The notes beneath the pieces were generated by a model. It searched no databases and was not told the DNA's origin. It saw only the letters and a program-made list of their open reading frames with translations. Shown piece by piece: positions 1 to 63,680 of a stretch of DNA of 64,000 nt. This stretch comes from Diphasiastrum complanatum (lineage: Eukaryota > Streptophyta > Lycopodiopsida > Lycopodiales > Lycopodiaceae). Location: positions 4,758,072-4,822,071 of the forward strand of contig CM055109.1 of NCBI GenBank assembly GCA_029204225.1, written 5' to 3'. A program made the position numbers and the translations under genes. How positions within the stretch are numbered: the stretch's first letter is position 1; every line of letters begins with the position of its first letter.

Positions 1-426
1 CTCTGCATCTTGTTTTGGAGGAGAGGAAGGAGCTGGTCTAAAGTACTCTACAAATTTGTCATATGTGTCCCGTAGCCTGAACACAATGTTGAAATCCTTG
101 GGCATGATGTTCATCCTCTTGGCATGGACAACTGCAACAACACTATCCGAAAAAAAATTCGCTTGGAAATCCTCATATGCAGTAGTGTGCAGCGCCTCAA
201 TTGTTGTTACAGTCCACCTCACATCTACATATAGACTTCTTGTAATTTGTTTGATGGATCTCTGTATGTGAGCTTTTGAAATCAAAAGATTATTGGTCTT
301 CTGTAGCTTCTGAATATCCTTCAGCCAGGGAGGGTCTCTTCGTCTACCCCTTGGCCTAAGAGGAGTTGGTGGCAGACGAGGCAGTGCTGGTGGATTGTTG
401 AAATTGAAAAATAATCCATCTTGACT
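1..426 (-). CDS. Divergent histone H3/CENH3-like histone-fold exon (partial)
   Basis: Reading the minus strand from 426 to 1, the frame is open for 142 codons and continues past the window edge. After a Pro/Arg-rich tail (PRGRRRDPP) it follows the H3 core in order: an alphaN-like helix (WLKDIQKLQKTNNLLI; H3 has REIRRYQKSTELLI), alpha1 (HIQRSIKQIT), a loop with VDVRWT, a long alpha2 ending in VVHAKR, then MNIMPKDF and RLR (H3: AIHAKRVTIMPKD). The alignment is nearly gapless, with one extra residue near the start of alpha2. RWT and FFSDS resemble plant CENH3 more than canonical H3. Unlike H3, the protein continues beyond alpha3 with an acidic, then Pro/Ser-rich tail. No in-frame ATG exists; TAA lies at 427-429, so the exon probably starts at a 3' splice site near 417-426. 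Histones package DNA in nucleosomes; any centromeric or specialised role is inference. Identification as an H3-family fold is firm, function is not. Confidence 0.72.
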
Positions 427-460
427 TTAGGCTTGCTACAAACTTTGTACTATGCAAGTA

Positions 461-1281
<821 letters not shown>

Positions 1282-1294
1282 TGGTGTCAGAGCC
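1282..1294 (+). other. Copia primer-binding site (initiator Met tRNA)
   Basis: TGGTGTCAGAGCC lies directly after the LTR end. It differs by one base from the plant Copia PBS TGGTATCAGAGCC, complementary to the 3' end of tRNA-iMet. It sets the element on the plus strand. Confidence 0.75.
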
Positions 1295-1818
1295 AAATTG
1301 AGCTTTGCATGCTAACATCTCTGATTGTACAAGAATTTGAGAGCTAATTCAAACAAAAAAGCAGTTATACACTTTTTCTTACCTTTCTCTGAAGTGTGTT
1401 TGGATCAAATCGGATTGAAACTGAATTTTCAGGTCTGAAAAGTGATAGTACGGAATTCTGGAATTTCGCACGTGTGAAAATCAAAGATTTCAGTCCCTTT
1501 TATTTCCTTGCTTGTTGATCCAAAGATAGTGGTCTTATAGCTTGATGGAAAGCTTATGAAGTGTACTTTCCATAGAAATTGATACCAAATCAATATGATG
1601 TGTCTATCAAAAGTTATAAGTTCTTAAAGAGGGTAGGGAGAGGTCCAAAATCTGAGTGACCACTTTTTGTTTTGATTCAACCTTGCTTTGTTCTGAGTCC
1701 ATTGTTTTGAGCATCCTACACAAGAAACTGAAGATCAAGACTAAGTTTGAAGTAATTGAAAGCCTTTTGAGCCTTCTGAGTATCAATAGTGTTTTCTTTT
1801 GAAGCATTTCACACATTT
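1295..1818 (+). other. Copia 5' leader remnant fused to Gypsy-like DNA
   Basis: This non-coding leader carries a GCACGTGTG motif followed by text like the leader of the Copia element at 13790-19688. It stops at 1819, where homology to the second Gypsy copy (9536) begins. No Copia gag follows, so the rest of this element was lost or replaced. No gene seen. Confidence 0.5.
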
Positions 1819-3952
1819 CATACATCGCAACACCTACCCTCCCACCGCTTCACTTCGCAACCATCTCCATCCACCCATCGAGACCACATTTCCATCGTTG
1901 CTACCATCTCCATCCGTTTTTGCACGTAGCAGCTGCATCCAACCCCAATCATACTGCCGTACGCCTACCCTCGGCCACCTTCACCACAACACACGGCCTC
2001 CACCTCCATCCGTTTTTGCACGTAGCAGCCGCATCCAACCGCAATCATACGGCCCTACGCCTACCCTCGGCCACCTTCACCGCAACACACGGCCTCCACC
2101 TCCATCCGTTTTCGCACATCGCAGCCGCATCCAATCGCACTTATCCGCCCTACACCTACCCTTGGCCATCTTCACCGCAACACACGGCCTCCACCTCCAT
2201 CCGTTTTCGCACGTAGTAGTCGCATCCAACTGCAATCATATGGCCCTACGCCTGCCCTCGGCCACCTTCACCACAACACACGGACACCACAACCACAACC
2301 CATTCGTCCACGGACGTAACCAACCGCATTCACAGCAGCTGACCGCACTACCACCACCTTTTCCCGCAAACACCACCTTACCACCGCACCGAGACCTTTT
2401 ACCCTCAACCTATCCCATTCCATCTGCAAACAGCCATCATCTAACCGTTATCACCACTGTAACCGTTATCGCCGCTACAACCGCAATTGTCCGCTGCAAC
2501 CGCCATTGCCCGCTACAATCGCAATCGCCCACTACAACAGTAATCGACCGTTGACACCGCCATCACCCATCATAACTATAGACATAGTAGAAATCACATT
2601 CCTCATAGCACATGAATCCGATCGCAATTGGGTCCTACACTGCATGCAAACACTTTGCCCAGCACACGACCTGCTTGCAAAAGCCCCACTACCACAACAT
2701 TCTACCCATGACCTGCATGTCTAGATGGTTCCCTACTCGGAACTCCAGACATCCCTCCATGACAAACACTACACCTGTACAACCCCAACCCTCCACGCAC
2801 CTCCCCAACCTTCATTCTGACCAGATCTTTCTCATGTTCTACTACTTTCCCATTTCTAACCACCTTGAGTAGTAACACAAGCAACTACCCGCACACCATT
2901 GCCCCACCCTTGCATCGTAGTGACATCCCCCACACGGCCACACACCCCTTATCTTACTGGACTCAGCCGACCACCTGCTAACTACGTCAACCCTTGAACC
3001 GTTAAAACCACATTACCGCCCTTCAATAGCCAACATGCCACCGTCTACCCACACTCGCATAGCACCGCAAACTATCACAACCTGTAGAGACTGTCGCCCA
3101 TCGCAAACCATTGCCATCCATCCCGAAACGTAGAATCCGTCCACCATCGCAAACCACCGCAAAACATGGTCATCCCTCGCAAACCATTTGGACCGCAAAC
3201 CACAGCAACATTCCACAATCCACTGATTTCCATCCTCGATTTGTGAAAACCGCATTAGACCAAATTACAACACCTACACACAAATTTAAGCGCATCCACC
3301 GTTCACCTGTAGCGACCTCATTCCCCTCCAACCCGAAAGTATTCGACCCACGACCTCCTCGATCCGTACTAACTACCCTGAACTATAGATTCCAACTAAT
3401 TGCCATCACAGAAACACACAGTATTCAAACCACAATCCACACTACCAACCGCATTCAACACGACTCCATCTCCATTTGCCCTTGACTACGTAATACACCG
3501 CATTAAACCGTATCCGCCCGGGAACGCTCACCCTGCCGTCCCACCGCTTTATTTCCAATCTTGCCCCGTGACCACCACACCCCACACGACCCGCCTTCAC
3601 CACAATCACCGCACCAGATCATAACTAACCCCAACAGACCGCATAACGCCACTATCTGCCATTACCCGTTGAAACTGCACGTTACAACCGCACATAGACA
3701 CGCATCCAGCCCCACCGAACGCAACTAACCGTGTCTACCCATCGAAACCGAATTCAAACGTTAACACCACATACAACCATCGAGACCGTGATCACAACGC
3801 CTCCACCACTGCCCACCATCACCCGCAATCCACCGTCACCGTAAACCGTAAATCCTAGGGACCGCAAAAACCTTAAAAAAAATAAAATAAATCCAAAAAC
3901 AGTTAACAAACACACAAAAAAATCCGACAGAAAAAAGACACAACAGTACCCA
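1819..3952 (+). other. A/C-rich, G-poor leader of Gypsy-like copy 1
   Basis: About 2.1 kb upstream of gag is strongly strand-asymmetric: the plus strand is built from A and C with few Gs, and words such as ACCGCA and CCACC recur throughout. Open frames here (Pro/His/Thr-rich) overlap in several frames and look like composition effects. The same text is at 9536-11690. I treat it as a long 5' leader rather than coding sequence. Confidence 0.6.
1912..2290 (+). repeat. 96-bp tandem repeat, about four units
   Basis: The anchor TCGGCCACCTTCACC recurs at about 1971, 2067, 2162 and 2258, a spacing of 95-96 bp. Because 96 is a multiple of three, the array gives parallel repetitive frames of about 32 residues. 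The same array is present in copy 2. Confidence 0.85.
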
Positions 3953-5305
3953 ATGGAACAACAAAAAGACCCTCAAATTCCAAACAATTATCCATACGAG
4001 GTCAGGTCCCCTGTAGCTGAACAAATCAGATGCCATAGGTTCTACCGAATGAGAGCCGAACTCCAAGAGCCATCCACAAACCCGTTCGATGGACAAGAAC
4101 CTGATAGAGCCGAGTCTTCACAAGCACGAGTCCATTTTTATGGTACTGAGCCCTCACGGGTCAGAACCAACCCTAATGGAGTTTCTGCTACCCATGGAGC
4201 TCATCTTGAAAGACGTACACCCAAACTAGATCTACCAAAGTTTGACGGTAGTTCGGACCCTCAAAGATTTTTGCAAATCTTTGAGAATGCATGTGATGTG
4301 TATGGTGAAACATCTCCCGATGCTATGGTCCAATTGTTTTCAATGACCATGATCCCTAAAGCGCGTGATTGGTTTTTCAACCTTGATGGTGACGAAAAGA
4401 CAGACTGGTCAATTTTAAAAGCGTCATTTGTCAAGTGTTTTAAGCCCTTTCGCTTGATCGAAAGCCCTTTTGTCAAATTGAGTAACATCAAGATGGCAAA
4501 GGATGAACGCATACGAGACTATATTGAGCGTTTCAAATGCCACAAAAGTTAGGTACAAGAACAGCCCTCCGAACAGATGCTCATCATCTGGTTCTTAGTC
4601 GGCCTTCCAAGATGGATTAGACGCGAGCTTAAATCCAATGATGAATACACGAGTCTAAAGTTAGCTATGTATGATGCCATCAAGGAAGAAGACGAAGGAT
4701 CAGATGATGACGCATCTAGGGAAAGACGAGCACTACGTGGTCCTGTCCATGAGTCAAAGCCGATCGAGGACACCCGAGATTAGCTTTGGAAATCCCAGTT
4801 GGAGTTGCTTAATAAGCAACATCAACTATAGATGGAGAAACTCACCAATGAGTGTCAAGCTACCCTGAAGTCTATCCAAAGCAATATGCCTGGTCAGCCA
4901 AACCCTGCACAGGTACCTTATAGACGAAAAACAATATGGTGCCCACACTGTCGGGCTACGCATCCTATTGATGCTTGTCCTTCATATCGACCTATCCATG
5001 CACATACAGTTCAACAATATGAAGAACACCCATCACAATCTGAAAATGCCTTGCCTTATCATGAATATCCACTAGAAAGTCCAGAACCACTAGCCATACA
5101 AGATGGCCACGCCGTTATACAAGGGCCACTGCACACCAGATGTTTCATCTGTGGTGAAACCGACCACTTCATGGTTGATTGTCTAGCTAAGAACCAGTAC
5201 CATGCTAAGTGTCCCGACTGTATCCGAAAACACAGATTCAAAGGCTGTCCAAAGCAACCAACTAAGATCCTATCTGCCCATCACATTAGTTATGACTCCC
5301 GATAG
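3953..5305 (+). pseudogene. Gypsy gag (capsid plus zinc knuckles), three stop codons
   Basis: One continuous frame of about 450 codons starts at ATG 3953. Residues ~85-195 carry a retrotransposon gag capsid signature (PKFDGSSDPQRFLQIFE, then AKDERIRDYIERFK). The C-terminal part carries CPHC...C, a canonical CFICGETDHFMVDC knuckle (CX2CX4HX4C) and a further CPDC...C cluster. Gag packages element RNA in cytoplasmic particles. The frame is broken only by in-frame TAGs at 4550, 4781 and 4829. Copy 2 has CAA, CAG and CAG at these positions, so these are substitutions, not frameshifts. No pol follows. Gag identity is firm; the coding state is dead in this copy. Confidence 0.75.
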
Positions 5306-6722
5306 GATCCTCACGACAACCACACGAGCACCATAGCACCAAATCGCTCAACCTGCTGCTCACTCGAGAAGTTTCTAGCAAAATTCTACATTACCGCACA
5401 ATATACCAACTCCAAAATGCCTAAAGACACTAATATGAAATGAGACATTGTCGCAGAAAGTGAAATCGATATTCCGTCATCTGCTACACTGTCCAACCAA
5501 GAGCAACCTCCACAGGGAATTGACAGTTTTCCTCCCCTTCCGCAACTCAAATCTATTTGTCTTTCCACAAGCTGATAAGATTTCCAATGTGCCAATACAC
5601 AATATTTCTCGGATTTGAAAATCCAGATAGAGATTCGGTTCTGAATCTCTTGGTCAGAGAGGTCCTTAGGACATAGTACCTCAACCATACCTGCATCTCA
5701 AGCTATATCTTACAACATCTGCTATCAATGATGGTAGATTTTTGTGTCACCAACCCTGCCTTGTTTTGACAAGGGCATATCAGATTATGTATCATTACTC
5801 TACAAAACAAATGAGCTATTCCAACTATCAAGGTGACTTATCAATGTTGATGAATGCAAGTTTTGTTCGACAAGTGCTATACAGTTCTCACTCTCTGTCA
5901 CGTTTGTTTATTTCCTTGTTTCTCTTCACCTATTTTGTGTGATTGATTTTTGCATGAGGAATAGCTTCTGCACGAGAGTCTTTTGTAGAGCATCTCCAGA
6001 ACACATTTTCATTCATCTATCCATCTTCAGATTACCTTGTACATCAGTTTCAATTTTTTGAGAACTATGAGAAATCCATGACAAGTTAGAGTTGATTCCT
6101 GCACCTCATTGCCATATTACTCTTCAAGTCAACTACAACAAGATCGAAACAAATTTAGTTAAAATTTGTTCAATCTTTAGTCCAGTCGCATGTTCACCGT
6201 GTTTTCAACTGCGTGTTCCACACACCGCTCCAATCTTGAACATGAACAGTTACCAACAACAACATCCCCACCAACAGATTTTTTGGAAGGGGAAGAGAGA
6301 GTGGATCTGCTTGGATCCACTGGAGCAGCCACATTGCCAGCAACAACATCAGCAAGGTCGATAGCCAAGGTCACAAGTCAAATATGAAAAAGACAAGGCT
6401 AAAGAAGGCAGATGGGTAATCCAAAAAGACTCAATCAGAAGAAGTACCCCAGTCACGATGAAGATCCTTCAGAAAGGGAAACTCAAGCATTGGAAAATCA
6501 GTATCCTTCTTCAACCAACTTCTCGTCATACATCTGCATCCATTCTCATGCCTATCGCCCAAACCATCTACCGATGTCACTACCACCCTTCCTTCCATCT
6601 GTTTGTTTATCATCAGTTTATATTTCTTCTGAGAAATCCCTAGTTTTTTATAGTCCTACCGAAGCAGTTGAAAGATCATTGCAAATGTATTGCGGCGACC
6701 AATTGCCACCTACAATGGTTGA
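5306..6722 (+). other. Post-gag region of Gypsy-like copy 1
   Basis: This non-pol internal sequence is shared with copy 2 (12686-13784, continuing at 19689-20011). Only short frames in several registers occur and none matches a retrotransposon domain. The TAAAG at 6400-6404 is the unoccupied counterpart of the Copia insertion site in copy 2. Confidence 0.5.
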
Positions 6723-6911
6723 TCAGTCAAACGAAGACCTAAGAAGCAAGCGAAGAAGCTAGAAGAACTAAAGAGGAAGATCCAAGAAGCTGAGGAGGAA
6801 AGGACAAAACTTAAGCAACAGATGAGTCAAATCAACCTTGATCAAAAGAAACTCTCTGGAGAAATGATAGTTGAATCTCATCTTATGAAGCCCAGAGAGA
6901 TCCAAAAGTAA
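6723..6911 (+). CDS. Short coiled-coil open frame (copy 1)
   Basis: A 62-residue open frame runs from just after TGA (6720) to TAA (6909-6911), without an initiating ATG at its start. It is Lys/Glu-rich with heptad-like spacing (KKLEELKRKIQEAEEERTKL, then QMSQINLDQKK), consistent with a coiled coil. The matching frame in copy 2 (20012-20200) is also open and differs by several substitutions but no indel. I do not recognise it. It could be a remnant of a longer accessory protein or a gag extension. Confidence 0.35.
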   Translation, partial: SVKRRPKKQAKKLEELKRKIQEAEEERTKLKQQMSQINLDQKKLSGEMIVESHLMKPREIQK

Positions 6912-7425
6912 GGGATCAGAAGAAAGAGCCACAAAAAAAAGAAAGATGAAGACAACGTGAACCTGCAAATAAAGTGAGCTCCTCACCTAGCGAGTGGTGG
7001 TCAAAGCTTGGCATTGCAAGGGTCCAAGGCTGCAACTATAGAACTATCAGTCCCCTCACCCTTCCACCAAGCCTTCATCATGTTTCCTTTCTGTTATCAA
7101 ACCGTCCATCCAAATTTGTTCCTACCACCAATTTCTTGATGATGAGTCCATCCCCTTGAGACTGATAACCAAAGTTTGTGCAACCTGCAGATCAAAGGGT
7201 TTCCTTGAGACTGGAAGTTCAACTGAGAGAATAACCACGGAGACACCCAGAGGCAAATGGAGGATACAGACCTCCCAGAAGATAGAATCTGCCAAGAAAC
7301 CAAAGATGAAACCGTCAATGGCAGATACAAGTGACAAAACAAAGAGACACATGGAAAGCACTCGAGCATACAAGTTGTGAAGTTGCTGAGAGCTCTCCAA
7401 TATTGAGAATGTCAACCAATTGCAG

Positions 7426-9475: not shown

Positions 9476-9535
9476 CGTTCTAGACAGAAGTAGTTCCTCA
9501 CCACCGCAACTAACAACACTCCATTACACCAATTG

Positions 9536-11690
9536 CATACATCGCAACACCTACCCTCCCACCGCATCACTTCGCAACCATCTCCATCCACCCATCAAGA
9601 CCACATTTCCATCGTTGCTACCATCTCCATCCGTTTTCGCACGTAGCAACCGCATCCAACCATAATCGTATGGCCCTATGCCTACCCTCGGCCACCTTCA
9701 CCACAACACACAGCCTTCACCTCCATCCATTTTCGCACATAGCAGCCGCATCCAACCGCAATCATATGGCCCTACGCCTACCCTCGGCCACCTTCACCGC
9801 AACACACAGCCTCCACCTCCATCCATTTTCGCACATCGCAGCCGCATCCAATCGCAGTCATCCGCCCTACGCCTACCCTCGGCCACCTTCACCGCAACAC
9901 ACGGCCTCCACCTCCATCTGTGTTTGCACGTAGCAGCCGCATCCAACTGCAATCATATGGCCCTACGCCTACCCTTGGCCACCTTCACCACAACACATGA
10001 ACACCGCAACCACAACCCATTTGTCCATGGACGTAACCAGCCGCATTCACAGTAGGTGACCGCACTACCACCACCTTTTTCCTCAAACACCACCTTACCA
10101 TCGCACCGAGACTTTTTACCCTCAACCTATCCCATTCCATCCGCAAATAGCCATCATCTAACCATTATCGCCACTGTAACCGTTATCGCCCGCTACAACT
10201 GCAATTGTCCGCTGCAACTGCCATTGCCTGCTACAATCGCAATTGCCCGCTACAACAGGTTTCAACCGCTGACATCGCCATCATCCATCATAACCGTAGA
10301 CACATTAGAAATCGCATTCCTCATAGCACACGACTCCGATTGCAATTGAGTCCTACACTGCATGCAAACACTTTGCCCAACACACGACCTGCTTGCGAAA
10401 GCTCTGCCTGCCAATGAAACTACCACAACGTTCTACCCACGACCTGCACGTCTAGATGGTTCCCTGCTTGGAACTCCAGACATCCCTCCATGACAAACAC
10501 TACACCTGTACAACCCCGACCCTCCACGCACCTCCCCAACCTTCATTCTGACCAAATCTTTCTCACGTTCCACTACTTTTACCATTTCGAACCACCTTGA
10601 GTAGTAACACAAGCAACTACCCGCACACCATTGCCCCACCCTTGCATCGTAGTGATAGCCCCCACACAGCCACACACCCCTTATCTTACTGGACTCAGCC
10701 GACCACCTCCTAACTACATCAACCCTTGAACCGTTACAACTGCATTACTGCCCTTCAACAGCCAACAACCCACCCTCTACCCACACTCGCATAGCATTGC
10801 AAACCATCAGATTTTGTAGGGACTACCGTCCACCGCAAACCATTGCCATCCATCCCGAAACGTAGAATCCATCCACCATCGCAAACCACCGCAAAACACG
10901 GTCATCCCTCGCAAACCATTCGGACAGCAAACCACAGCAACATTCCACAATCCACTCATCTCCATCTTTGATATGTGAAAACCGCATTAGACCAGATTAC
11001 AACACCCACACACAAATTCAAGCGCATCCACCGTTCACCCGTAGTGACCTCATTTCCCTCCAACCCGAAAGTATTCGACCCACGACCTCCTCGATCCATA
11101 CTAACTACCCTGAACTGTAGATCCCAACTGACTGCCATCACATAAACACACAGTATTCAAACCACAATCCACACTACCAACCGCATTCAACACCAGTCCA
11201 TCTCCATTTGCCCTTGACTACATAATACACCGCATTCAACCGTATCCGCCCTGGAACGCTCACCCTGCCGTCCCACCGCTTTATTTTCAATCTTGCCCTG
11301 AGACCACCACACCCCACATGACCCGCCTTCACCACAATCACCGCACCGGACCATAACTAACCCCAACAGACTGCATAACGCCACTGTCTGCCATTACCCA
11401 TTGAAACTGCACATTACAACCGCACACAGACATGCATCCAGCCCCACCGAACGCAACTAACCGTGTCCACTCATCGAAACCGCATTCAAACGTTAACACC
11501 GCATACAACCGTCAAGACCGTGATCACAACGCCTCCACCACTGCCTGCCATCACCCACACATAACCGCAATCCACCGTCACCATAAATTGTAAATCGTAG
11601 GGATCGCAAAAACCTTAAAAAAAAAAAAATCCAAAAACAATCAACAAACACACAAAAAAATCCAACACCAAAAAGACACAACAATACCAA
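9536..11690 (+). other. A/C-rich leader of copy 2 with 96-bp repeats
   Basis: Same strand-asymmetric sequence as 1819-3952. The 96-bp array lies at about 9625-9985. No gene; overlapping Pro/His-rich frames are compositional. Confidence 0.6.
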
Positions 11691-12685
11691 ATGAAACAAC
11701 AAAAAGACCCTGAAATCCCAGATGATTATCCATACGAGGTCAGGTCCCATGTAGCTGAACAAATCAGATGCCCGTGACGAAAAGACAGACTAGTCAATTT
11801 TAAAAGCACCATTTGTCAAGCGTTTTAAGCCCTTTCTCTTGATCTAAAGCCCTTTTGTAAAATTGAGTAACATCAAGATGACAGAGGATGAACGCGTATG
11901 AGACTATATCAAGCATTTCAAACGTCTCAAAAGTCAAGTACAAGAACAACCCTACGAATAGATGCTCATCATCTGGTTCTTAGTCGGCCTTCCAATATGG
12001 ATTAGACGCGAGCTTAAATCCAATGATGAATACACGAGTCTAAAGTTAGCTATGTATGATGCCATCAAGGAAGAAGATGAAGGATCAGATGTTGACTAAT
12101 CTAGGGAAAGGCGAGAACACGTGCTCCTATCCATGAGTCAAAGCCGATCGAGGACACACGAGATCAGCTTTGGAAATCCTAGTTGGAGTTGCTTAATAAG
12201 CAACATCAACTACAGATGGAGAAACTCACCAATGAGTTTCAAGCTACCCTGAAGTCTATCCAAAGCAATATGTCTGGTCAGCCAAACCCTGCACAGGTAC
12301 CTTATAGACGAAAAATAATATGGCGCCCACACTGCCGGGCTACGCATTCTATTGATGCTTGTCCTTCATATCGACCTATCCAAGCACATACAGCTCAACA
12401 ATATGAAGAACACCCATCACAATCTGGAAATGCCTTGCCTTATCATGAATATCCACCAGCAAGTCCATAACCACTAGCCATACAAGATGGCTACGCCGTT
12501 ATACAAGGGCCACTGCACATTGTTTCATCTGTGGTGAAACCAGCCACTTCATGGTTGATTGTCCAGTTAAGACCCAATACCATGATGAGTGTCCCGAATA
12601 TATCCAAAAACATAGTTTCAAAGACTGTCCAAAGCAACCAACTAAGATCCTACCTGCCCGTCACGTTAGTTATGACTCCCGATAG
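11691..12685 (+). pseudogene. Gypsy gag remnant, capsid core deleted
   Basis: The start (ATGAAACAACAAAAAG, matching the copy 1 gag start) is followed after about 80 bases by sequence matching the region just after the capsid core of copy 1. Most of the gag domain is therefore deleted at about 11772. The downstream part includes CRATHSIDACPSYRP and a knuckle region truncated near 12517. Several stops and frame shifts remain. Confidence 0.6.
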
Positions 12686-13789
12686 GATCCTCACGACAAC
12701 CACACGAGCACCATAGCACCCAACCGCTCAACCTGCTGCTCACTTGAGAAGTTTCTAGCAAAGTTCTACATTACCACACGATATACCAGCTCCAAAATGC
12801 CTAAAGACACTAATATGAAATGAGTCATTGTCGCAAGAAAGTGAAACCGATATGCCGTCATCTACTACAATGTCCAACCAAGAGCAACTCCATAGGGAAT
12901 TGTCAGTTTTCCACCCCTTCTGCAACTCAAATCTATTTGTCTTTCCACAAGCTGATAAGATTTCCAATGTGCCAATACACAATATTTCTCGGATTCGGAA
13001 ATCCAGATAGAGATTCGGTTCTGAATCTCTTGTTTAGAGAGGTCCTTAGGACATAGTACCTCAACCATATCTGCATCTCAAGCTATATCTTACAACATCT
13101 GCTATTAATGATGGTAGATTTTTGTGTCACCAACCCTGCCTTGTTTTGACAAGGGCATATCAGAGTATGTATCATTACTCTACAAAACAAATGAACTATT
13201 CCAACTATCAAGGTGACTTATCAATGTTGATGAATGCAAGTTTTGTTCGACAAGTGCTATGTAGTTCTCACTCTCTGTCACGTTTGTTTATTTCCTTGTT
13301 TCTCTTCACCTATTTTGTGTGATTGATTTTTGCATTAGGAATAGCTACTGCATGAGAGTCTTCTGTAGAGCATATCCAGAACACATTTTCATTAATCTAT
13401 CCATCTTCATATTACCTTGTACAACAGTTTCAAAATTTTGAGAACTATGAGAAATCCATGACAAGTTAGAGTTGATTCCTGCACCTCATTGCCATATTAC
13501 TCTTCAAGTCAACTACAACAAGATCGAAACAATTTTAGTTAAAATTTGTTCAATCTTTAGTCCAGTCGCATGTTCACCGTGTTTTCAACTGCGTGTTCCA
13601 CACATCGCTCCAATCTTGAACATGAACAGTTACCAGCAACAACATCCCCACCAACAGATTTTTTTTTGGGGGGGGGGAAGAGAGAGTGGATATGCTTGGA
13701 TCCACTGGAGCAGCCACATTGCCAACAACAACATCAACAAGATCGGCAGCCAAGGTCACAAGTCAAATATGAAAAAGACAAGGCTAAAG

Positions 13790-14480
13790 TGTGAAAAGTA
13801 CAGTACTAAGGACCATAAATGGATCTTTGAATGATCCACAAGGTGATTGTATGCTTGTTAAACAATCTATCAGAAACTAGTCATCAGAAAACAAGATCTA
13901 GTTTAGCAGCTTGATAGGAAACAAGTAGAGACAATCAAAGCATTGATCAAATAGTCTAATCCAACTCCACACGTGTGGAAATAAGGCTGTAGTACGGCCT
14001 GCAGACAGTTTTTACAAAGTGCCAAAGCTGGGTTTCATTGGAAAAATAGAGTAATCACCATACAATGAGAGGAAACTCGAGTTTCTCCTTGAGGCTCCAA
14101 AAAGTTTCTATCTTCTCACTATGGAGAATGGAAATACATAGTAAAACACACTTCCTTTGCAAAGTTAGGTGAAAATCTAGCATGTAATAAGGAAGTAGAC
14201 TCCACTTTCTTGCCCTAATGTGAAAACCCTAGTCTAGATCCAAGAGTCATGCTTGGTAGGTGCATGGTAGGTACAAATCTCATCATAAATCATGGTCTAG
14301 ATCCTACAAAGTAGGAATCACTACCAAATAGACACAACCACTCCTCTTGACTCGTGGTAACCTACTTTAGGTGTGTATGTACAAGTGGCACTTTGGCCAT
14401 TCAAGTAACCAACAAACAATATTGACAAAATGTACAATATTCTACATGGCTAGATTTGCCAATGTAGGCAATTTTTCACA
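13790..14480 (-). repeat. Copia 3' LTR
   Basis: Starts TGTGAAAAGTACAG and ends TTTTTCACA; the polypurine tract (GAGGAGGAG read on the minus strand) abuts it at 14481-14489. It contains the palindrome CCACACGTGTGG at 13967-13978. Confidence 0.92.
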
Positions 14481-14506
14481 CTCCTCCTCAAATCTAGCCT
14501 TGGAGA

Positions 14507-17500
14507 TCACAATGCTTTTATCAATAACTCCAATTGAAGATCTAAGCTTGAAAAATGAATCTTTAGGTAAAGGTTTAGTAAAAAATCAGCCAAGCAACTT
14601 GATGATGGCACGTGTTGGAGCTTGATCTCTTTAGCTTGCACTTTTTCCCTCACGAAATGATGAGCAATTTCGATGTGTTTGCTCCTTGCATGGAATGTAG
14701 GATTAGTTGCAAGTGATTGGGCTGATTGGTTGTCACAATAGATGATAGGGATCTCCTCCTCCATGACATGAAGCTCCACCAATAGCCTTTTGAGCCACAA
14801 GACCTCCTTGCATGTTGATGTCAAGGCCTTGTATTCGGATTCTGTGGAAGATAGGGAGATGGTGTCTTGCTTTTTGGAAAGCCATGATACTACTCCATCA
14901 CATAGAAAGGTGGAAAAGGCACTTGTTGATCTTCTATCCACTTTGTCACCTGCAAAATCTGAGTCACTATAGGCTCTTAAGCCAAGATTAGTTCCTCTAT
15001 ACAAAATACCAAAATTCTTAGTGAATGAAATGTATCTAAGAACTCTTTTGGCCATCTTCCAATGTGAAACTAGAGGACTTTGCATGAATTGGATTAACTT
15101 TCCAACACTATAACTAAGATCAGGTCTAGTTATAGTTAAATAGATCAAGGAGCCAATAAGCCTTCTATATAATGTGATGTCCTCAAAGGATGCTTCATCA
15201 CAGCCAATAGATGCTTTTACATGTTGCTCCATTGGTGTCTCAATGCCTTTACAATTCTTCATTCCAAATCTATCTAGGATGGATGTAGCATATTTAGATT
15301 GACAAATGAAGCTAAAATCACATCCTCTAATAACCTCTATTCCAAGAATGAAGCTTAATAGGCCGAGATCTACCATCTTAAACTCTTTTGCTAAAGCAAT
15401 TTTTACATTTCTAATTCCATCTAGATCATTACCACTCAAGATAATGTCATCTACATACAAAACAAGAATAATGATCATGCCATCATGAAAACTTATATAC
15501 AATGATGGATCATAGGCACTCATTACAAAATTGATGGAAATGAGAAAAGAGTTTAGCCTAGAGTACCATGCTCTAGGTGCTTGCTTGAGCCCATAAAGGC
15601 TCTTCTTCAAAAAACACACCTTTCCTTCATGCTTTGACTTGATGAAGCCCTCGGGTTGCCTCATGTAGATCTCTTCCTCCAAATAACCATTGAGGAATGC
15701 ATTTGTGAAGTCAAGTTGGAATAGCTCCCAATTGAAGGTTGTAGCAAGACTAATGATCAACCTGATAGTAACAAGCTTAGCCACAGGAGCAAAAGTCTCA
15801 TCATAGTCAATGCCTTTGGTTTGTAAAAAACCTTTGGCAACAAGCCTAGCTTTATGCTTGCTTATTGATCCATCTTGATTATACTTCAATCTAAACACCC
15901 ACTTGCAATCAAGAGGTTTCTTCCCTTGAGGAAGATCCACAAGATCCCAAGTATGATTCTCAATAAGAGCATCATACTCTACTTGCATAGCATCCATCCA
16001 ACTTTTAGACTTACAAGCATCTTCATAGCATGTTGGCTCATCTAACATTGAAGTAAGAAAGGTGTAAGGTGTGAAAGATGATGAGCCTTCCCTTTGATCA
16101 CCTTGACCATCATAGGTGAGCCTCAATGGCTCGGATCTTGCCCTTGTAGATCTTCTTGGAGTTCTTGGAGTTCTTGCATCTTGAGGTGGATCCTCAAGTT
16201 CTTCTTCACTTGGAAGCTCCTCCTCCATCCTAGCATGATCCTTGGCATCAAGATGATTAGTAGCATTATCATCCAAATCACAAGCATGTCCTTCATAAAA
16301 AATAACATCCCTACTCACTATCACCTTGCTAGTGATGGGATTGAAGACTCTATAACCTTTGCTATTCTCACCATATCCCACAAAGATGCCTTTGATAGAT
16401 GTTGCATCATCCTTCCTTCTCTTATCCAAGGATTGGTGTACATAGCAAGTGGATCCAAAAACTTTGAGATCTTTGAGATTGGGCTTCTCTCCAAATAGAG
16501 CTTCAAATGGTGTGATTCCTCCAATGGCTTGGTTTGGCAATCTATTGCACAAATAGTTAGCACAAGTTATTGCTTCACCCCAAAATGGTTTGGATAGAGA
16601 AGCATCTAGCCTTAAGGCCTTAGCACACTCACAAAGAGATCTATTTCTTCTCTCACTCACTCCATTTTGTTGAGGGGTGTATGGACATGACAACTCCCTC
16701 TTTATGCCATTAGAAATACAAAAGTCAATCAACTTATTGGAGACATATTCACCTCCATTATCACTCCTTAATACCTTAATCTTGGTATTAAGTTGATTTT
16801 CTACCAAAGTCTTGAACTTTACAAAAGAATCAAACACCATTGATTTGCTAGACAAGAGGTACATCCAACAAAATCTAGAATAGTCATCAATGAAGATTAC
16901 ATAGTACTTGGCACCACCATTAGACTCATGTGAAAAACTATGAACATCCGAATGGATGAGTTCAAGAGGAGAGTTTGATCTTGATGTAGATCTTGAGAAG
17001 GGTAGCTTGTGAGCCTTTGAGAGGCTGCATGCTTCACATCTCTTCCCACACTTTGACAAATGCTTGGGGAGTCCAACTGCAAGCTCCTTTGTAGTCATAG
17101 ATTCCATGGCTTTGTAGTTGGGGTGGCCCAACCTTTTGTGCCACAGTTCCACCTTTGATAGATCCACCTTTGCCAAGTTAACACTCTCCACTGCAATATT
17201 AGCATCAAGCTTAAACAATCTACCTTGCTTAAAGCCTTTGGCTATACATTCATCATTTCTAAGGATGGAACAAACTCCATGCTTAAATTGTACATCTAGG
17301 CCATTATCCATTAACTGGCCAACACTAAGCAAATTCTTGGTTAACTTAGGAACATAAAGAACATTATCTAGATTCATCCTTTTGGATGATCCCACATACA
17401 AGGGAATTGTTCCTATTCCACTTATCTTACATTCTTGACTACTTGCAGTATAGATTGATCTATGTAAGTCATTGTAAGAAAGTAAGGTGGAGAATATGTC

Positions 17501-17596
17501 CTTTTGATATGTCATGTGGGAACTTGCCCCACTATCAATCCACCAAGAATAATTGGTGTTGCTCTTGGATGATGGTGATTTGTTGGAAACCATCAA
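14507..17596 (-). pseudogene. Copia pol polyprotein (PR-IN-RT-RNase H)
   Basis: A 1029-codon frame with domains in Copia order. Protease IDSGASSHM is near residue 20 and the pre-integrase LWHKRLGHPNY near 150. The integrase core has HSDVH, an FIDDYSR block, RSDNGGEY and YTPQQNGVSERRN (~215-320). Reverse transcriptase has [21 protein letters not shown] and YVDDIILSG (~600-730). RNase H has SSTESEYKAL and CDNQSAQSL (~920-970). The order IN before RT is diagnostic of Ty1/Copia. The last residues shift frame after LADFL: removing one T would restore the usual ADFxTKPL ending. The upstream gag-pol junction is also broken, so the polyprotein cannot be made whole from this copy, although pol is nearly intact. 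Confidence 0.9.
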
Positions 17597-18366
17597 GGAT
17601 GACTCTTCATCCTCCTCTTCCTCCTGATGTGCAATGTTGCTTTGTTTGCTCTCTTGTGCCTTCTTCTTCTTGAGACATTCTGATGCAAAATGTCCTTTCT
17701 TTCCACAGAAAAAACATTAGTACTTGGACTTGTCTTTGATCTTGCCCTTTGAGCTTGAAGCCTCATCCTCCTCCTTGGTCTCCTTGAAGTGCTTCTTCTA
17801 CTACACTCTTCAGCTACTAATACACTGTGTAGCTTTTCTATAGTAGGCAAAGTGTCTTGGATTGCAAAGCTTTGGACCAAATTTGTAAAGCCACTCCCTA
17901 GACCATTTAGGACAATCTGAACAAGCCCACTATCTTGAATCTTCTCTCCAATGGAAGCTAACTCCCTATTCAGAGACTTGATTCTTAGCACATAATCTTG
18001 TGCATTCTCATCACTCCTCTTCATGCTTTGTAGAATCTAGTTCCTAAGCATGAGAACCCTCGAAGTGTTACTAGACTCATAGATAGATTTTAAAGATTCC
18101 CAAGCCTCTTTAGCACTCTTACATGATGATACTTCCCTTAAAAGATCATTGCTTACATTCATCTTAATACAGTGAAGTGCAAGCCTAGACCTCTTCTTGT
18201 ATCTCACTAATTCCTGTGCACCTAGAGGTTCATCTTCATCATCTATTAGAAACTCATAAAGATCCTGGAGCACAATTAGTGACTCCATCCTCACTTTCCA
18301 AATAGCATAATTGGTAGAATTTAACCTCTCACTAGCTTCTAGAATGTAGGCTCCCACTGATCCCAT
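17597..18366 (-). pseudogene. Copia gag, broken
   Basis: The start MGSVGAYILEASERLNSTNY at 18366 and the block HCIKMNVSNDLLREV are typical of the plant Copia gag N-terminus. A stop near 18037 splits the frame; the second piece (18024-17593) shifts register after VLVAEECS. The zinc knuckle CFFCGKKGHFASEC is present in another frame near 17680-17725 and is preceded by a TAA. Gag would form the particle that holds element RNA. Confidence 0.8.
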
Positions 18367-18984
18367 CTTACTAGCAAGATTCTACACACAAGATATAGAT
18401 TTGTTTGGACCTGAAACTCACAAAGGTTTCAAACTTGCAGTGTTTCACTCAAATGTTGACTTCTAATCCAACAGATGGATTTGTAATCACAGTTCTATCA
18501 CTCCCTCACAAGCTGGAATGAAGATAAGATGAGATGAAAACTACACTCAAGCAAATCTTGCCAATCTTGGCTATTTTTGGACAAAAACTGACTCTATCTC
18601 TCTCATTCACTTTGATGTACTTTCAAGACCTGGTTTCCACTTTAAGAAGGTCTGAAATCAGCCTAGATTAATTAGTTTTCATGAAACAAATTCAAAACTA
18701 ATCAATGGCAAGTGATCTTGGTAGCTTATCCTAGGATTTGCACCAAAAATTACATCAAACTGACACCATATGAATTTTCTATGATCCAATGAATATGAGT
18801 TCTTAAATGCTGGTTCAGAGATGCCCACACGTGTGAACAGTACGGATTTTGATCCTGAAAAAGTTTGGGATCAAATCCCCTCACCAAAACCTGGATACCA
18901 GCTCGCCCTTCCAATACTAGCTTTTTGCACCAAAACCTGCTAAAACTGGATTAGATTCAAACACAGATCAATGGCCTTGTACTT

Positions 18985-18997
18985 GGCTCTGATACCA
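18985..18997 (-). other. Copia primer-binding site
   Basis: Read on the minus strand, TGGTATCAGAGCC directly follows the end of the 5' LTR. It is a perfect plant Copia initiator-Met tRNA site. Confidence 0.93.
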
Positions 18998-19688
18998 TGT
19001 GAAAAGTACAGTACTAAGGACCATAAATGGATCTTTGAATGATCCACAAGGTGATTGTATGCTTGTTAAACAATCTATCAGAAACTAGTCATCAGAAAAC
19101 AAGATCTAGTTTAGCAGCTTGATAGGAAACAAGTAGACACAATCAAAGCATTGATCAAATAGTCTAATCAAAGTCCACACGTGTGGAAATAAGGCTGTAG
19201 TACGGCCTGTAGATAGTGTTTACAAAGTGCCAAAGCTGGGTTTCATTGGAAAAATAGAGTAATCACCATACAATGAGAGGAAACTCGAGTTTCTCCTTGA
19301 GGCTCCAAAAAGTTTCTATCTTCTCACTATGGAGAATGGAAATACATAGTAAAACACACTTCCTTTGCAAAGTTAGGTGAAAATCTAGCATGTAATAAGG
19401 AATTAGACTCCACTTTCTTGCCCTAATGTGAAAACCCTAGTCTAGATCCAAGAGTCATGCTTGGTAGGTGCATGGTAGGTACAAATCTCATCATAAATCA
19501 TGGTCTAGATCCTACAAAGTAGGAATCACTACCAAATAGACACAACCACTCCTCTTGACTCGTGGTAACCTACTTTAGGTGTGTATGTACAAGTGGCACT
19601 TTGGCCATTCAAGTAACCAACAAACAATATTGACAAAATGTACAATATTCTACATGGCTAGATTTGCCAATGTAGGCAATTTTTCACA
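18998..19688 (-). repeat. Copia 5' LTR
   Basis: Pairs with 13790-14480 at the same length. Contains CCACACGTGTGG at 19175-19186. Followed by the TAAAG duplication and then Gypsy-like copy 2 sequence. Confidence 0.92.
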
Positions 19689-20011
19689 TAAAGAAGGCAG
19701 ATGGGTAATCCAAAAAGACTCAATCAGAAGAAATACCCCAGTCACGACGAAGATCCTTCAGAAAGGGAAACTCAAGCATTGGAAAATCAGTATCCTTCTT
19801 CAACCAACTTCTCGTCATACATCTGCATCCATTCTCATGCCTATCGCCCAAACCATCTACCGATGTCACTACCACCCTTCCTTCCATCTGTTTGTTTATC
19901 ATCAGTTTATATTTCTTCTGAGAAATCCCTAGTTTTTTATAGTCCTACCGAAGCAGTTGAAAGATCATTGCAAATGTCTTGCGGCGACCAATTGCCACCT
20001 ACAATGGTTGA

Positions 20012-20200
20012 TCAGTCAAACGAAGACCTAAGAAGCAAGCGAAGAATCTAGAAGAACTAAAGAGGAAGATCCAAGAAGCTGAGGAGGAAAGGACAAAACT
20101 TAAGCAACAGATGAGTCAAATCAACATTGATCAAAAGAAACTCTCTGGAGCAATGATAGTTGAATCCCATCTTATGAAGCCCAAAGAGATCCAAAAGTAA
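20012..20200 (+). CDS. Short coiled-coil open frame (copy 2)
   Basis: Counterpart of 6723-6911, still open over 62 codons to TAA at 20198-20200. Changes against copy 1 include K to N, L to I, E to A and R to K. The heptad-like Lys/Glu pattern is retained. Unknown product. Confidence 0.35.
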   Translation, partial: SVKRRPKKQAKNLEELKRKIQEAEEERTKLKQQMSQINIDQKKLSGAMIVESHLMKPKEIQK

Positions 20201-20714
20201 GGGATCAAAAGAAAGAGCCACAAAAAAAAGAAAGATGAAGACAACGTGAACCTGCAAATAAAGTGAGCTCCTCACCTAGCGAGTGGTGGTCAAAGCTTGG
20301 CATTGCAAGGGTCCAAGGCTGCAACTATAGAACTATCAGTCCCCTCACCCTTCCACCAAGCCTTCATCATGTTTCCTTTCTGTTATCAAACCGTCCATCC
20401 AAATTTGTTCCTACCACCAATTTCTTGATGATGAGTCCATCCCCTTGAGACTGATAACCAAAGTTTGTGCAACCTGCAGATCAAAGGGTTTCCTTGAGAC
20501 TGGAAGTTCAACTGAGAGAATAACCACGGAAACACCCAGAGGCAAATGGAGGATACAGACCTCCCAGAAGATAGAATCTGCCAAGAAACCAAAGATGAAA
20601 CCGTCAATGGCAGATACAAGTGACAAAACAAAGAGACACATGGAAAGCACTCGAGCATACAAGTTGTGAAGTTGCTGAGAGCTCTCCAATATTGAGAATG
20701 TCAACCAATTGCAG

Positions 20715-24990: not shown

Positions 24991-25541
<551 letters not shown>

Positions 25542-26676: not shown

Positions 26677-27948
<1,272 letters not shown>

Positions 27949-29310: not shown

Positions 29311-29931
<621 letters not shown>

Positions 29932-45475: not shown

Positions 45476-47785
45476 AAAATATAAGCCTGAATGAGATAAC
45501 TACCAAATAATGATATAGATTAACACCATGTAATGAGTAACGTTGTCTTTTCCCCAACAATCATGTACATATTTTGTGGTGCAATGATTTTGCAAAGTCC
45601 TCATATCTTCTGAGGATAGGTTTCCTTTCCTGATAACACCTATGAGTTTGTCTAAGTTGGTTCACACTTGTCCCTTTTCCACTCGATTACTTCCTTCCAG
45701 TGTTCGTGTGGCTTGAACAATTTCCCTCCAAATTTTGTATCTGACACTTGATTCTTTGCATGTGTGATTGGATAAGAATCTTCTTGCTTTAGTACTTCCA
45801 ATTGATGGCTTATTAGGAACATTTCTTTTTTTCTCGGAGATTCTGTCATTGTTTTCAATTGTGAAGTTCCCTTTATGTAGTCCTGCATTTGACAGAACTA
45901 TTTCCAACCTCCTAATTGCTGCTTTAGCCACAAACTCCAGTTTATGATTCCATGCTAGTAGAATATGCAGGTAAATAAGTTTTTCAACAATACGAACCTC
46001 AGCATGCAATGTGCATATGTGAACATTTTTTTATGGAATTGGTAGAACACTTTTCATATTTGGATCTTCAGCTTTTCGTGTTGGGCCAATGTTTGTTGAT
46101 AGTCCCAAATTCATATTGTAGCAATCCTTCATGCAATAAAGACATGGATGCTTTGATGTTGCCCCATGAGAGACACTATACATACATTTTGATGTTTTCA
46201 AATCCCCTGCAAAGTGCCATCGAATTTGAAAACTTCCATGGTTTTCAACTGTAAATTTCTCACCCTCCAAATGTCTCTTTATAATTTCGCCATAATTTGT
46301 TCTTGAAAATAACCATGAAAGTATTTTATGGTCATCTTTCAAGACCTATAGAGAAGCAAGTAATGCATGACATGTCAATAAAAACTAGCAAGGTATGACA
46401 TGTTAATAACGATATTCTAAATGAAAATTGAAATGTATACCTAGAATGCCGCCAACCACCATATGTGATTTTCCGATTGATAGTAAACGTTCGATCATCT
46501 GTATCTGAAATTTAATTCATGTAAGTGACACTCACTCGTTCCAACTTTTGACCTTTGATGATTTCAGATTCATCCAAAATTATCACAATAACGATCTTTC
46601 CATTTACTTGATGTTCGTCTAGTTTATAGAATCGAATAATGTATTTTAGAACATTTTCAATATCAAGAAAAATATCATTGCAATCATTGTAATTGAGCTC
46701 ACCATATTCTGATTCGTATAATTCAGTTATATGAAGTGGTTGGCCAACTACTTTGAACATTCCGGCATTATAATAATTTCTTGCTAATCTTATTCGATAT
46801 GGACGTGGAAGATAAGTTTTCTTCACCATCACTTGGGAAAAAGCTTCTTTAACTATTCTAAAAAAAGTAGAATAAGCATTTCTGCTAATTCTAGAAACAT
46901 CACATGCACCTTGTATCACATTTGCATCCAAGTATGATTGAACCTTAATCAAAAAATTCTCTACAAATTCATTTTTCATTTTTTCAAACCGAGCATTTTT
47001 CATCATTTCCTTTGCTGACTTTCTTGTTAAAACATGACTTAAAGATGATCCAATGCATGAATGATCTGTTAAATAGTTCTTTGCCACCAAACACGATCTG
47101 CAACAAACATATGAAACTCAAATTATGTTTAATAAATAAATAATCCATGTTATGAAGTGCAAATTAAACTTAAATGACATATACAAATCAAGTAAATAGT
47201 TTATATGAAAACATACTTGAATGCTCGAATTCTTTTTTTCTGATTGCCGCTATGTGTAAATAAGTCATCAATATTCTTCATCGGTACTATCTTTCTTTTC
47301 CTCTTCATCATTGCCTTTTTGATAACTTGTATATCAACAACAGATTTTAAACTCTCGGATCGCACCTTTTCCATGGATTCTAACATTTCTTGGTTTGATC
47401 CCCGAAGAGTAGTGACTGTAGCATTCAACTCTGACATAGCATTCTTGAGTGCATTGTTTTCAGCACCAGTGTGTTGCACATAATGAAGCAATTGCTGATT
47501 TGCACGTTGCAATTGTTGATTAGCAAACTGTAATTGCTGATTAAGACAAGATATGCTATGCATTCCAATATCACACAACCTTTGACAATATCCAAGTAAT
47601 CCGCTATTTCCTTCACATACAAATCTGAGAAGATGAGTTACGGACCTAAAATCTGGACACAAATTGGTAGCTGGATCATTAGGATAAATTGATCCATTCA
47701 CCCACAAATCTATATTCATATGATTATTCATTCTCAATTCTCTAACTATTGCAGCATCATTCTCTACAACTTTCGAATTTTTCTT
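45476..47785 (-). pseudogene. Transposase-like gene, unclassified family, with introns
   Basis: Exon A (47785-47217) encodes an N-terminal domain with NMNIDLWVNGSIYPNDP-like text, a Gln/Asn-rich coiled coil (QQLQFANQQLQRANQQ) and a basic end. An intron at 47216-47098 has GTATGT..TTGCAG borders and joins in frame to exon B (47097-46440, helical, with IVIVIILDESEIIKGQKLE). A second intron (about 46439-46350, GTATAC..CTATAG) leads to exon C with FAGDLKTSKCMYSVSHG, KHPCLYC and LHAEVRIVEKL. The spaced Asp residues with a CxxC and LHxxxR recall zinc-containing DDE transposases (RAG1/Transib and KDZ proteins have comparable layouts), but I cannot assign a superfamily. In-frame TAAs near 46530 and 46030 and a TGA near 45662 show decay. 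Confidence 0.5.
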
Positions 47786-47846
47786 CTCTCTCTAAAGTGA
47801 AATTTCTTAAAGGGCCCATTTTGAGCCCATATTTCCCGTAATGAAA
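47785..47846. repeat. Shared terminal sequence of the transposase-like unit (copy 1)
   Basis: CTCTCTCTAAAGTGAAATTT followed by text through TTGAGCCCATATTTCCC and TAATGAAA is nearly identical to 63845-63906. Homology between the copies ends at the same base (…TAATGAAA), suggesting an element terminus. The inverse partner was not found near 43200. Confidence 0.5.
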
Positions 47847-51332: not shown

Positions 51333-52831
51333 TCATACCTGGATTGAAGAACTAGGTTCACAATAACCATATATATGTCGGCTTGTTGACGTATCTTTTT
51401 TCCACAATGTGATAGCGTGAGAAAAATCCATGGAATCGTCTAATGGACGGCCTTCTATGCATATACGCATAAGAGCATCAACATTTGAAGTAGACAAAGA
51501 ATTACGTAATTTATCTTTGATCCATTTTTTCATACTAAACCCTCTCTCACATGCTGCAGTGCTAGAACATTGTAACAAAGCAACTTTAGCTAATTTTAAT
51601 ATATTAGGGTATTTTTCTCGCCAAGTTTCATTAGATCCAATGTTCAACCAAGTTTCTCTCAAACTCTTACCTTTCCATTCATTTGAAACTTGCATTTTAA
51701 ATCTGGTCAACTCTCGTCTAAATGATAAACTATCTATAAAAGGTTCTATAGTTTCATTATTGTTGTCCTATTTTTTAGATTTTCCATAAAAGTTTACCAA
51801 GTTATCAACATCATCATCACCAAAGCTTTTCAACTCACGATATATACCCAAAGGAAAAACCCAAAGAGATAAAATTTTCAACGATCAATGAATAGTAGTA
51901 ATGAATGGAGAATGTTTCTTGAACAAAGTAGCAACTCCAACCCTAGATCCAACCATGGATGATGGACCATCAGAACCAAAACCAACGCAATCAACTAAAG
52001 ACAATCCGTTGGGCTAATAATAGTTTTTTTACAACTTCAAATATGCCTAAACCTTATCCACATCACATAACTCAAAAAATGTCACACAAGGATAGCTATT
52101 TTCCATGAAGCAAACATAGATTATAAGGTGTTTCTTAGAAGAATGATCTGTGGACTCATCTATCATGACACTATAATATTTACTAGATTTAATTTTAGTC
52201 AATATAGACTCTTTAAGCGCAATACTAAGATACTTGATAAAAATAGCACATGGTTTACCATTCTCATATATACCACGAGGGACATCGGGAGCACGAGATG
52301 CCCGTAAATAGATCAGAATATCTTCAAAATATGTGAAAGCAAAATTATGTTTAGCAATAAAATATGCCGAACAAAAAAGATGTTGTACAGAGGTATCCAC
52401 ACTTAGAGCTTGCTTCTTCATTCCTTCTTCAAAAGATTTCCTGCCATCCTTCACAACCCAGTTAGAAATCTTATGTGATTCAGACTTTGCATGATTTTTA
52501 ATAGCACTAAGTTTGATATTTATAGAACCATTTCTACCATATTTTGTACGATTATTAGGATTTTTTTCACACCATGTACAGAAAACACGACCAATGGTTT
52601 TATCGAATCTAACCCATGGAAATGTGTCCTTCCAACTAGGACATTAAGCTTTGATAGCTTTTTTTATTTGATCAACTTCCTCTATGGATTTTCCATCTAA
52701 ATTAATATCAGTTAAATGAATAGGATTATTAGTAGAACTACCTACTACACTTGGAACTTTTAGATGTATCAGGAACATTAACTTTTTCAAAGCCAGGAAT
52801 ACTGAAAAGAGTCTTTTGACGTTTAGACATG
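51333..52831 (-). pseudogene. hAT-type transposase with TTF zinc finger, decayed
   Basis: Starts MSKRQKTLFSIPGFEKVNVP (52831), then stops and frame shifts. A TTF-type zinc finger (FDKTIGRVFCTWCEKNP, then IKNHAKSESHK) lies at about 52620-52480. The frame 52454-52047 carries YYSVMIDESTDHSSKKHL, the usual hAT catalytic-Asp region. Only part of the middle follows (VGFGSDGPSSMVGSRVGVA-like text near 51990-51930). The C-terminal dimerisation domain is at 51710-51333 (AACERGFSMKKWIKDKLRNS, NVDALMRICIEG). The product would bind and move a hAT DNA transposon. The middle is shortened and stops are numerous, so it is inactive. Family assignment is confident; terminal repeats were not found. Confidence 0.78.
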
Positions 52832-54479
<1,648 letters not shown>

Positions 54480-62639: not shown

Positions 62640-63680
62640 TTGATAGCTTTTAGATCAACAACAAATTTTAAACTCTCGGATCACAACTTTTCCGTGGATT
62701 CTAACATTTCCTGGTTTGATCCTCAAAGAGTAGTGACAGCAGCATTCAACCCTGACATAGCATTCTTGAGTGCACTATTTTCAGCACTAGTGTATTGCAC
62801 ATAATGAAGCAATTGTTGATTAGCAAACTGTAATTGTTGATTCAGACAAGATATGCTATGCATTCCAATATCACGCAACCTTTGACAATATCCAAGTAAT
62901 CCGCTATTTCCTTCACACATAAATACAAGTAAATTTCCATAGGCGAAAAAGGCAACACTGTATTTTCACACGTGATTTGTGATAGGCGAAAAAGGCGACA
63001 CTACCCTACAAAATGCCAAAGGTGCCCTTATAGAAAAGCAAAGTCACCTTGTAAAATCAAATCTTAAGGCATTTGTCAGAGTGTCACATTTTTTGCGTCT
63101 TCACCAATGTTCATTTCAGCAAAGGCTGACGTCGCGGCCTTCTCACGCTCATCCCATGCAACTGTGCAAACAGATTTGACAACAGCAGCAGTCACCCATG
63201 ATCTCCCACAAACATCATATCCACTTTGTACTTTCTTTACCTACATACATATTTGAGAAGATGAGTTACGGACTTAAAATCTGGACACAAATTGGTAGCT
63301 GGATCATTAGGATAAATTGATCCATCCACCCACAAATCTATATTCATATGATTCTTCATTCTCAATTCTCTAACTATTGCTGCAACATTTTCTACATCTT
63401 TCGCATTTTTCTTAATAATTGGAGTGCATTCCATCGGAAGAGCAACATGCAAATGGAACATTGCCATTGTTAAAGCTACAATCATGTAAATGAATCTACC
63501 TACAGTAAATCAATATGAATAGATCTAGCATTCCTTACTTTTGTAATGTTTATGTCACATTGAAAAATTGTCATGCCTCATATTTCACTATAAGTATACA
63601 GTGATTTCAAAAGTTTTGCCTCTCCCGCTTCAATTTTTGCATTGAGCACACCAAGATCTTCAATCTTAAAGCTCTAGTCC
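62640..63680 (-). pseudogene. Second copy of the transposase-like gene, 5' part only
   Basis: From 63485 the frame MIVALTMAMFHLHVALPMEC leads into the same N-terminal domain as 47785-47217 (NMNIDLWVDGSIYPNDP-like, LCPDFKSVTHLL). After a ~306-bp insert the coiled-coil part resumes (LLGYCQRLRDIGMHSISC, NQQLLHYVQYTSAEN) to about 62640. The catalytic half is missing. A further short open stretch upstream (63672-63587, IEDLGVLNAKIEAGEAKLLK) may be an earlier exon. This copy preserves the 5' region that copy 1 has deleted. Confidence 0.55.
62930..63236. mobile_element. ~306-bp insertion in the second transposase copy
   Basis: Absent from the equivalent place in copy 1 (near 47622), where TTTGTATGTGAAGG is continuous. 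Flanking TATGTATGT and TTATGTGTG could be a target duplication of about 8-9 bp. The insert contains ATAGGCGAAAAAGGC twice (62941, 62983) and an open stretch on the minus strand (SGYDVCGRSWVTAAVVKSVC). Not identified. Confidence 0.45.

Follow-up and report, generated by a model that had tools for sequence, protein, structure and literature searches.

A 142-codon open frame at the left edge of the window, by which we mean the whole 64,000-nucleotide stretch of Diphasiastrum complanatum DNA analyzed here, holds an H3-type core histone fold. Judged by its sequence, this histone-fold exon is a genuine, very divergent member of the H3 family, as the preliminary description of the DNA had proposed. 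Our tentative reading is that it forms the last or an internal exon of an H3-family gene that is strongly diverged and specific to its lineage (an "H3-like" variant) and probably not centromeric. The features of the exon and its flank are as follows.

1..426, minus strand: 142-codon open frame that encodes the H3-type histone fold (ORF, Pfam and phmmer)
70..357, minus strand: H3 homology from alphaN to alpha3, protein residues 24–119 by Pfam and 25–119 by phmmer
1..69, minus strand: open frame past alpha3, 23 residues to the window edge, putatively coding (ORF; GT at 51 and 46)
355..426, minus strand: stretch rich in Pro and Arg ahead of the core, with AGs resembling acceptors immediately before 386 and 355
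427..429, minus strand: in-frame stop TAA directly upstream of the frame
427..1804, no strand: flank free of repeats like those found from 1805 onward, apart from (CT)n at 933–1046

Read on the minus strand, positions 426 to 1 contain no stop in this frame, which is still open at the left edge of the window; its 3′ end falls outside the window. Homology left aside, the probability of an open frame of 142 codons at the stop frequency of the flank is ~2e-4. The H3 core that had been described on this strand was confirmed by the Histone profile search proposed along with it: the 142-residue translation matched Pfam PF00125 over residues 24–119 with an E-value of 3.3e-13 (50.4 bits, where the cut-off is 26.4). 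A phmmer search of the PDB returned 173 distinct sequences at E ≤ 0.001 (best E 1.6e-13), the best 60 of which are H3-type chains, one among them being named merely a histone-domain protein; for most chains among the matches listed, the alignment spans residues 25–119. Two further Pfam matches of the translation, CENP-S (E 0.0048) and DUF1563 (E 0.011), fell under their own cut-offs and were set aside. The NCBIfam search gave a single match at chance level (E 0.046), the PHROGs search gave none, and no second copy of the histone exon was found within the window.

The protein was compared with nine cellular references, three H3s and six CENH3s, of which three were confirmed against solved chains. 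AlphaN, alpha1, loop 1, alpha2, loop 2 and alpha3 could all be aligned to these references. Loop 1 has the length of that of H3, and the one extra residue lies, as previously noted, in alpha2 instead, aligned between the matches of H3 Ala96 and Glu97, although it could be placed anywhere in about H3 93–97. The frame retains His113, Ala114, Lys115, Arg116, Pro121, Lys122, Asp123, Arg83, Arg69 and Asp106. The statement that the invariant positions are kept did not hold, as the nine references share 26 invariant columns and 13 of these were matched, compared with 20 of the 69 variable columns matching plant H3, a marginal enrichment (one-sided p 0.048).

At the nine H3 positions that we take to be contacts of the H3:H3 bundle, four residues are identical (106, 113, 116 and 123) and the other five are hydrophobic or small replacements. 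Eleven positions presumably contact DNA (42, 45, 49, 63, 64, 69, 72, 83, 115, 118 and 122); six of them are identical (42, 64, 69, 83, 115 and 122), two carry Lys for Arg (49 and 72), and three are lost through Thr45 to Pro, Arg63 to Ser and Thr118 to Asn substitutions. The hydrophobic core and the H3:H3 contact residues are largely kept. The change of Leu100 to Gln and the extra alpha2 residue could disturb the fold. None of the titles and opening lines of abstracts listed by the literature searches described an H3 with an insertion in alpha2.

The residues before the core had been described as an Arg/Pro tail. The Pro/Arg-rich stretch is present, but only as a putative tail: no in-frame ATG lies between the TAA at 427–429 and the histone core, and 2 of the 15 AGs listed around the exon start, those before window bases 386 and 355, are acceptor-like. 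Being near the start of the H3 homology, these two AGs fit an internal exon. The stretch may be a tail or partly intron; it is unlike an H3 tail and may not be the true tail of the protein, and the canonical H3 tail (ARTKQTARKS...) is absent from the 142-codon frame. The proposed C-terminal extension stands insofar as no stop occurs between alpha3 and the window edge, but it is only putatively coding because of the GT dinucleotides at 51 and 46. No convincing first exon was seen in the 1.4-kb flank (427–1804), where none of the 15 ATG-led frames of at least 12 codons was H3-like by eye and a donor pattern (three were tried) occurred only in one nested pair, starting from 1318 and 1282. H3-tail motifs were likewise absent from the minus strand below 20 kb, and the first exon itself was not located.

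BLAST placed the exon at similar distances from H3 and CENH3, with 62.4 bits against plant H3 (36.5% identity over 85 residues), 61.6 bits against Arabidopsis CENH3 (40.7% over 86 residues) and 58.9 bits against human CENP-A (37.9% over 95 residues); maize CENH3 was the lowest of the nine references (37.4 bits), the other eight giving 49–62 bits. PMC7052976 gives four criteria for cenH3: an insertion in loop 1, absence of the alpha1 glutamine, and divergence of both the tail and the histone fold. Each of the six CENH3s has a loop 1 longer by one to six residues (alignment count), whereas our protein lacks even a single inserted residue there. It also keeps Gln at H3 position 68 in alpha1, which is lost in all six CENH3s used. 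Its fold is divergent, scoring 55.6 bits with an H3 profile that gives 194–204 bits for its own three source H3s and 104–146 bits for the six CENH3s.

The residues cited for a lean towards CENH3 are there: Trp at H3 84 is shared with five of the six CENH3s and none of the three H3s, and Ser107 is found in two of the six. Thr75, Ala65 and Phe124 are also seen in four, three and one of the six, respectively. Eighteen columns are discriminating, with one letter in all three H3s and a different letter in four or more of the six CENH3s; among these, the protein carries the H3 letter at three (64, 68 and 81; at 64 and 81 this letter is also present in some CENH3s), another letter seen in some CENH3 at ten, and neither at five, a count that leans to CENH3 by construction since the CENH3s hold many letters per column. 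A profile of the six CENH3s scored 63.2 bits, a gain of 7.6 bits over the H3 profile. In the same comparison, left-out CENH3s gained 0.3 to 26.2 bits and left-out H3s lost 39 to 43, and the viral H3-like controls described below gave +7.1 (L002), +4.1 (L004), +3.4 (L003) and −9.0 (L001). As three of these four viral controls also gain, the broad profile would favor any outlier, and we give this lean little weight.

The placement in a tree of H3s, CENH3s and viral histones that had been called for was carried out with 14 rows. The exon sits on an end branch of 1.68, in a part of the tree where the branching order is left open; one open fork (57/84) joins it with plant CENH3 but also with the viral L003 and L004, with long branches. 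None of its three groupings was rejected by the AU test (plant CENH3, p 0.352; H3, p 0.256; viral, p 0.437). For uncharacterized divergent H3s, according to the survey PMC2939574, tree position cannot assign an H3-like or CenH3-like function. With two of the four published criteria failing and a tree that cannot assign function, the exon was not filed as a CENH3, and the claim of membership in that class is not supported, although the exon may still have a CENH3 function, as Trp84 and Ser107 are present and the tree favors no grouping.

The history of the sequence was compared with simulated neutral decay, using one simple mutation model without indels run down to the observed identity. Starting from plant H3, the open frame survived in 62 of 2000 runs. 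The mean BLOSUM score of the mismatches (observed 0.13, simulated −0.63) was reached in 1 of 1500 runs, the number of hydrophobic sites kept (28 of 30, simulated 21.7) in 4 of 1500, and the number of positive-scoring replacements (19, simulated 12.6) in 50 of 1500. Starting from Arabidopsis CENH3, the conservativeness of the replacements was reached in 46 of 1500 runs, the other two measures in 577 and 190 of 1500, and an open frame in 88 of 1500. Such conservative replacements do not fit neutral decay from H3, while with a CENH3 ancestor the constraint test is weak. The histone sequence looks shaped by selection; the simulation bears on constraint across the history of the sequence if the ancestor was an H3, not on present-day function.

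The window has a G+C content of 39% and a CpG observed/expected ratio of 0.44, and it carries Retrotrans_gag, Copia gag and Copia pol domains, elements that suggest a land-plant genome. No tRNA was found in it and Rfam gave no match at the gathering score. The account of a retrotransposon-dense region holds from 1805 onward, where repeated retroelement DNA begins, but not for the exon itself, which none of the repeats seen in the window covers. The main elements are listed below.

1805–7425: LTR-type element, copy one, with Retrotrans_gag (frame 3845–4552)
9522–13789 and 19689–20714: LTR-type element, copy two, split by the Copia element
13790–19688: Copia element with a 1069-codon frame, its 691-bp repeats 99% alike
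1904–2290 and 9621–9997: tandem repeat with a unit of ~96 bp, in both LTR-type copies
46512–47791, minus strand: two adjoining long frames with no Pfam match above cut-off
52047–52643, minus strand: frame encoding a zinc finger of C17orf113 type (E 3.4e-15)

The two LTR-type copies are 91–99% alike by segment. Parts of 46512–47791 recur at 62640–62924 and 63243–63413, which makes this region probably a repeat family, and the zinc-finger frame is presumably a remnant of a hAT-like transposon. Unusually long (CT)n/(AG)n tracts were also observed at 933–1046, 25265–25537, 27018–27301, 29332–29607 and 53351–53536, perfect tracts of at least 20 bp totaling 1326 bp.

Searches for relatives of the exon yielded 2 and 41 pattern stretches in viral contigs and 44 in bacterial/archaeal contigs, and none was confirmed in these collections. 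With H3 as the lead query, four viral H3-like loci were retrieved (L001:1205–2476, L002:343–1446, L003:2001–2387 and L004:1803–2315); in L001 and L002, judged by eye, the H3 part seems to follow further histone-like parts in a fusion. A BLAST comparison of the exon with these four loci matched only L001 (22% identity, 26.2 bits). The suggestion that the histone belongs to a mobile element or an endogenous virus accordingly found no support: the nearest relatives were not viral. We regard it as very improbable, even though the surroundings are dense in retroelements, the open fork is shared with L003 and L004, and the grouping with all four viral loci is not rejected by the AU test in a tree whose branching is left open.

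Among the readings of the exon, that of a variant H3 gene, which we hold tentatively, has as its closest competitor a relic, i.e. an H3 or CENH3 gene copy, shortened or decaying, which has lost its first exon and now lies among retroelements. This is possible but less probable. The stop at 427–429, the lack of an in-frame ATG before the core, the flank with no visible first exon, the retroelement repeats from 1805 onward, a divergence far beyond that of the six reference CENH3s and the weakness of the constraint test with a CENH3 ancestor all speak for it. Set against these are the 142 codons without a frame break, though a recent loss could leave no stops, the replacements too conservative for decay from H3 and the acceptor-like sites close to the start of the homology. 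Since the frame lacks a start codon ahead of the core, the adjoining 1.4 kb shows no first exon and the 3′ end falls beyond the window, a recent relic is conceivable. Rather unlikely is that the exon belongs to the CENH3 of this lineage, or to a duplicate of it, in which the loop-1 insertion was lost or never present; the five shared residues, the identity to Arabidopsis CENH3, the fork with plant CENH3 and a profile gain inside the range of the left-out CENH3s, unlike that of the left-out H3s, point to it, while the H3-like loop 1, the retained alpha1 Gln, a similar gain in all viral controls except L001 and the limits of tree placement argue against it.

A variant H3 would pair with H4 and enter (H3-H4)2 tetramers in the place of H3. 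Its nucleosomes might have altered or missing tail marks and, given the substitutions of Thr45, Arg63 and Thr118, would probably grip DNA more weakly, possibly serving a specialized chromatin state, for example in reproductive cells, rather than the centromere. A bolder version, which we consider improbable, is a working H3-class histone, of a type that our searches did not turn up, with alpha2 lengthened by a one-residue bulge, a canonical loop 1 and a C-terminal extension, forming a structurally distinct nucleosome and maybe acting at the centromeres of this lineage although it lacks the loop-1 mark by which cenH3s are recognized. Few known proteins are as conserved as H3. If constrained, a copy at ~36% identity with an insertion in alpha2 would therefore reveal the extent to which the nucleosome core is free to drift; a role as centromere histone would mean that the usual CENH3 sequence criteria are too strict; and if it were a relic, it would be ordinary.

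Compared with known histones, the exon shares with the viral H3-like proteins the histone fold and a strong divergence from H3, its distance from the H3 profile being close to those of L001 (70.9 bits) and L002 (53.8 bits), whereas direct similarity to the four is nil or marginal. With plant canonical H3 (H3.1/H3.3) it has in common the fold, the length of loop 1, Gln68 of alpha1 and the HAKR and IMPKD motifs; it differs in its 36% identity over 85 residues, in showing no canonical tail, in the additional alpha2 residue and in the frame that stays open after alpha3. Arabidopsis CENH3 shares RWT, Ser107, Thr75, Ala65 and KDF with it, but has the loop-1 insertion, lacks the alpha1 Gln and has an alpha2 one residue shorter. 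Human CENP-A shares Trp84 and an alphaN start like RRR..WLK.I.KLQK, a likeness we infer to be probably convergent, while loop 1 of our protein is two residues shorter and the alignment makes its alphaN region longer by one or two residues. Finally, plants carry heterogeneous H3-like genes whose N-terminal parts are absent or degenerate, as reported in PMC4357034. The exon may be far more divergent than these genes, going by their description there, and like them it has a degenerate or missing canonical N-terminal part and departs from the H3.1/H3.3 signatures.
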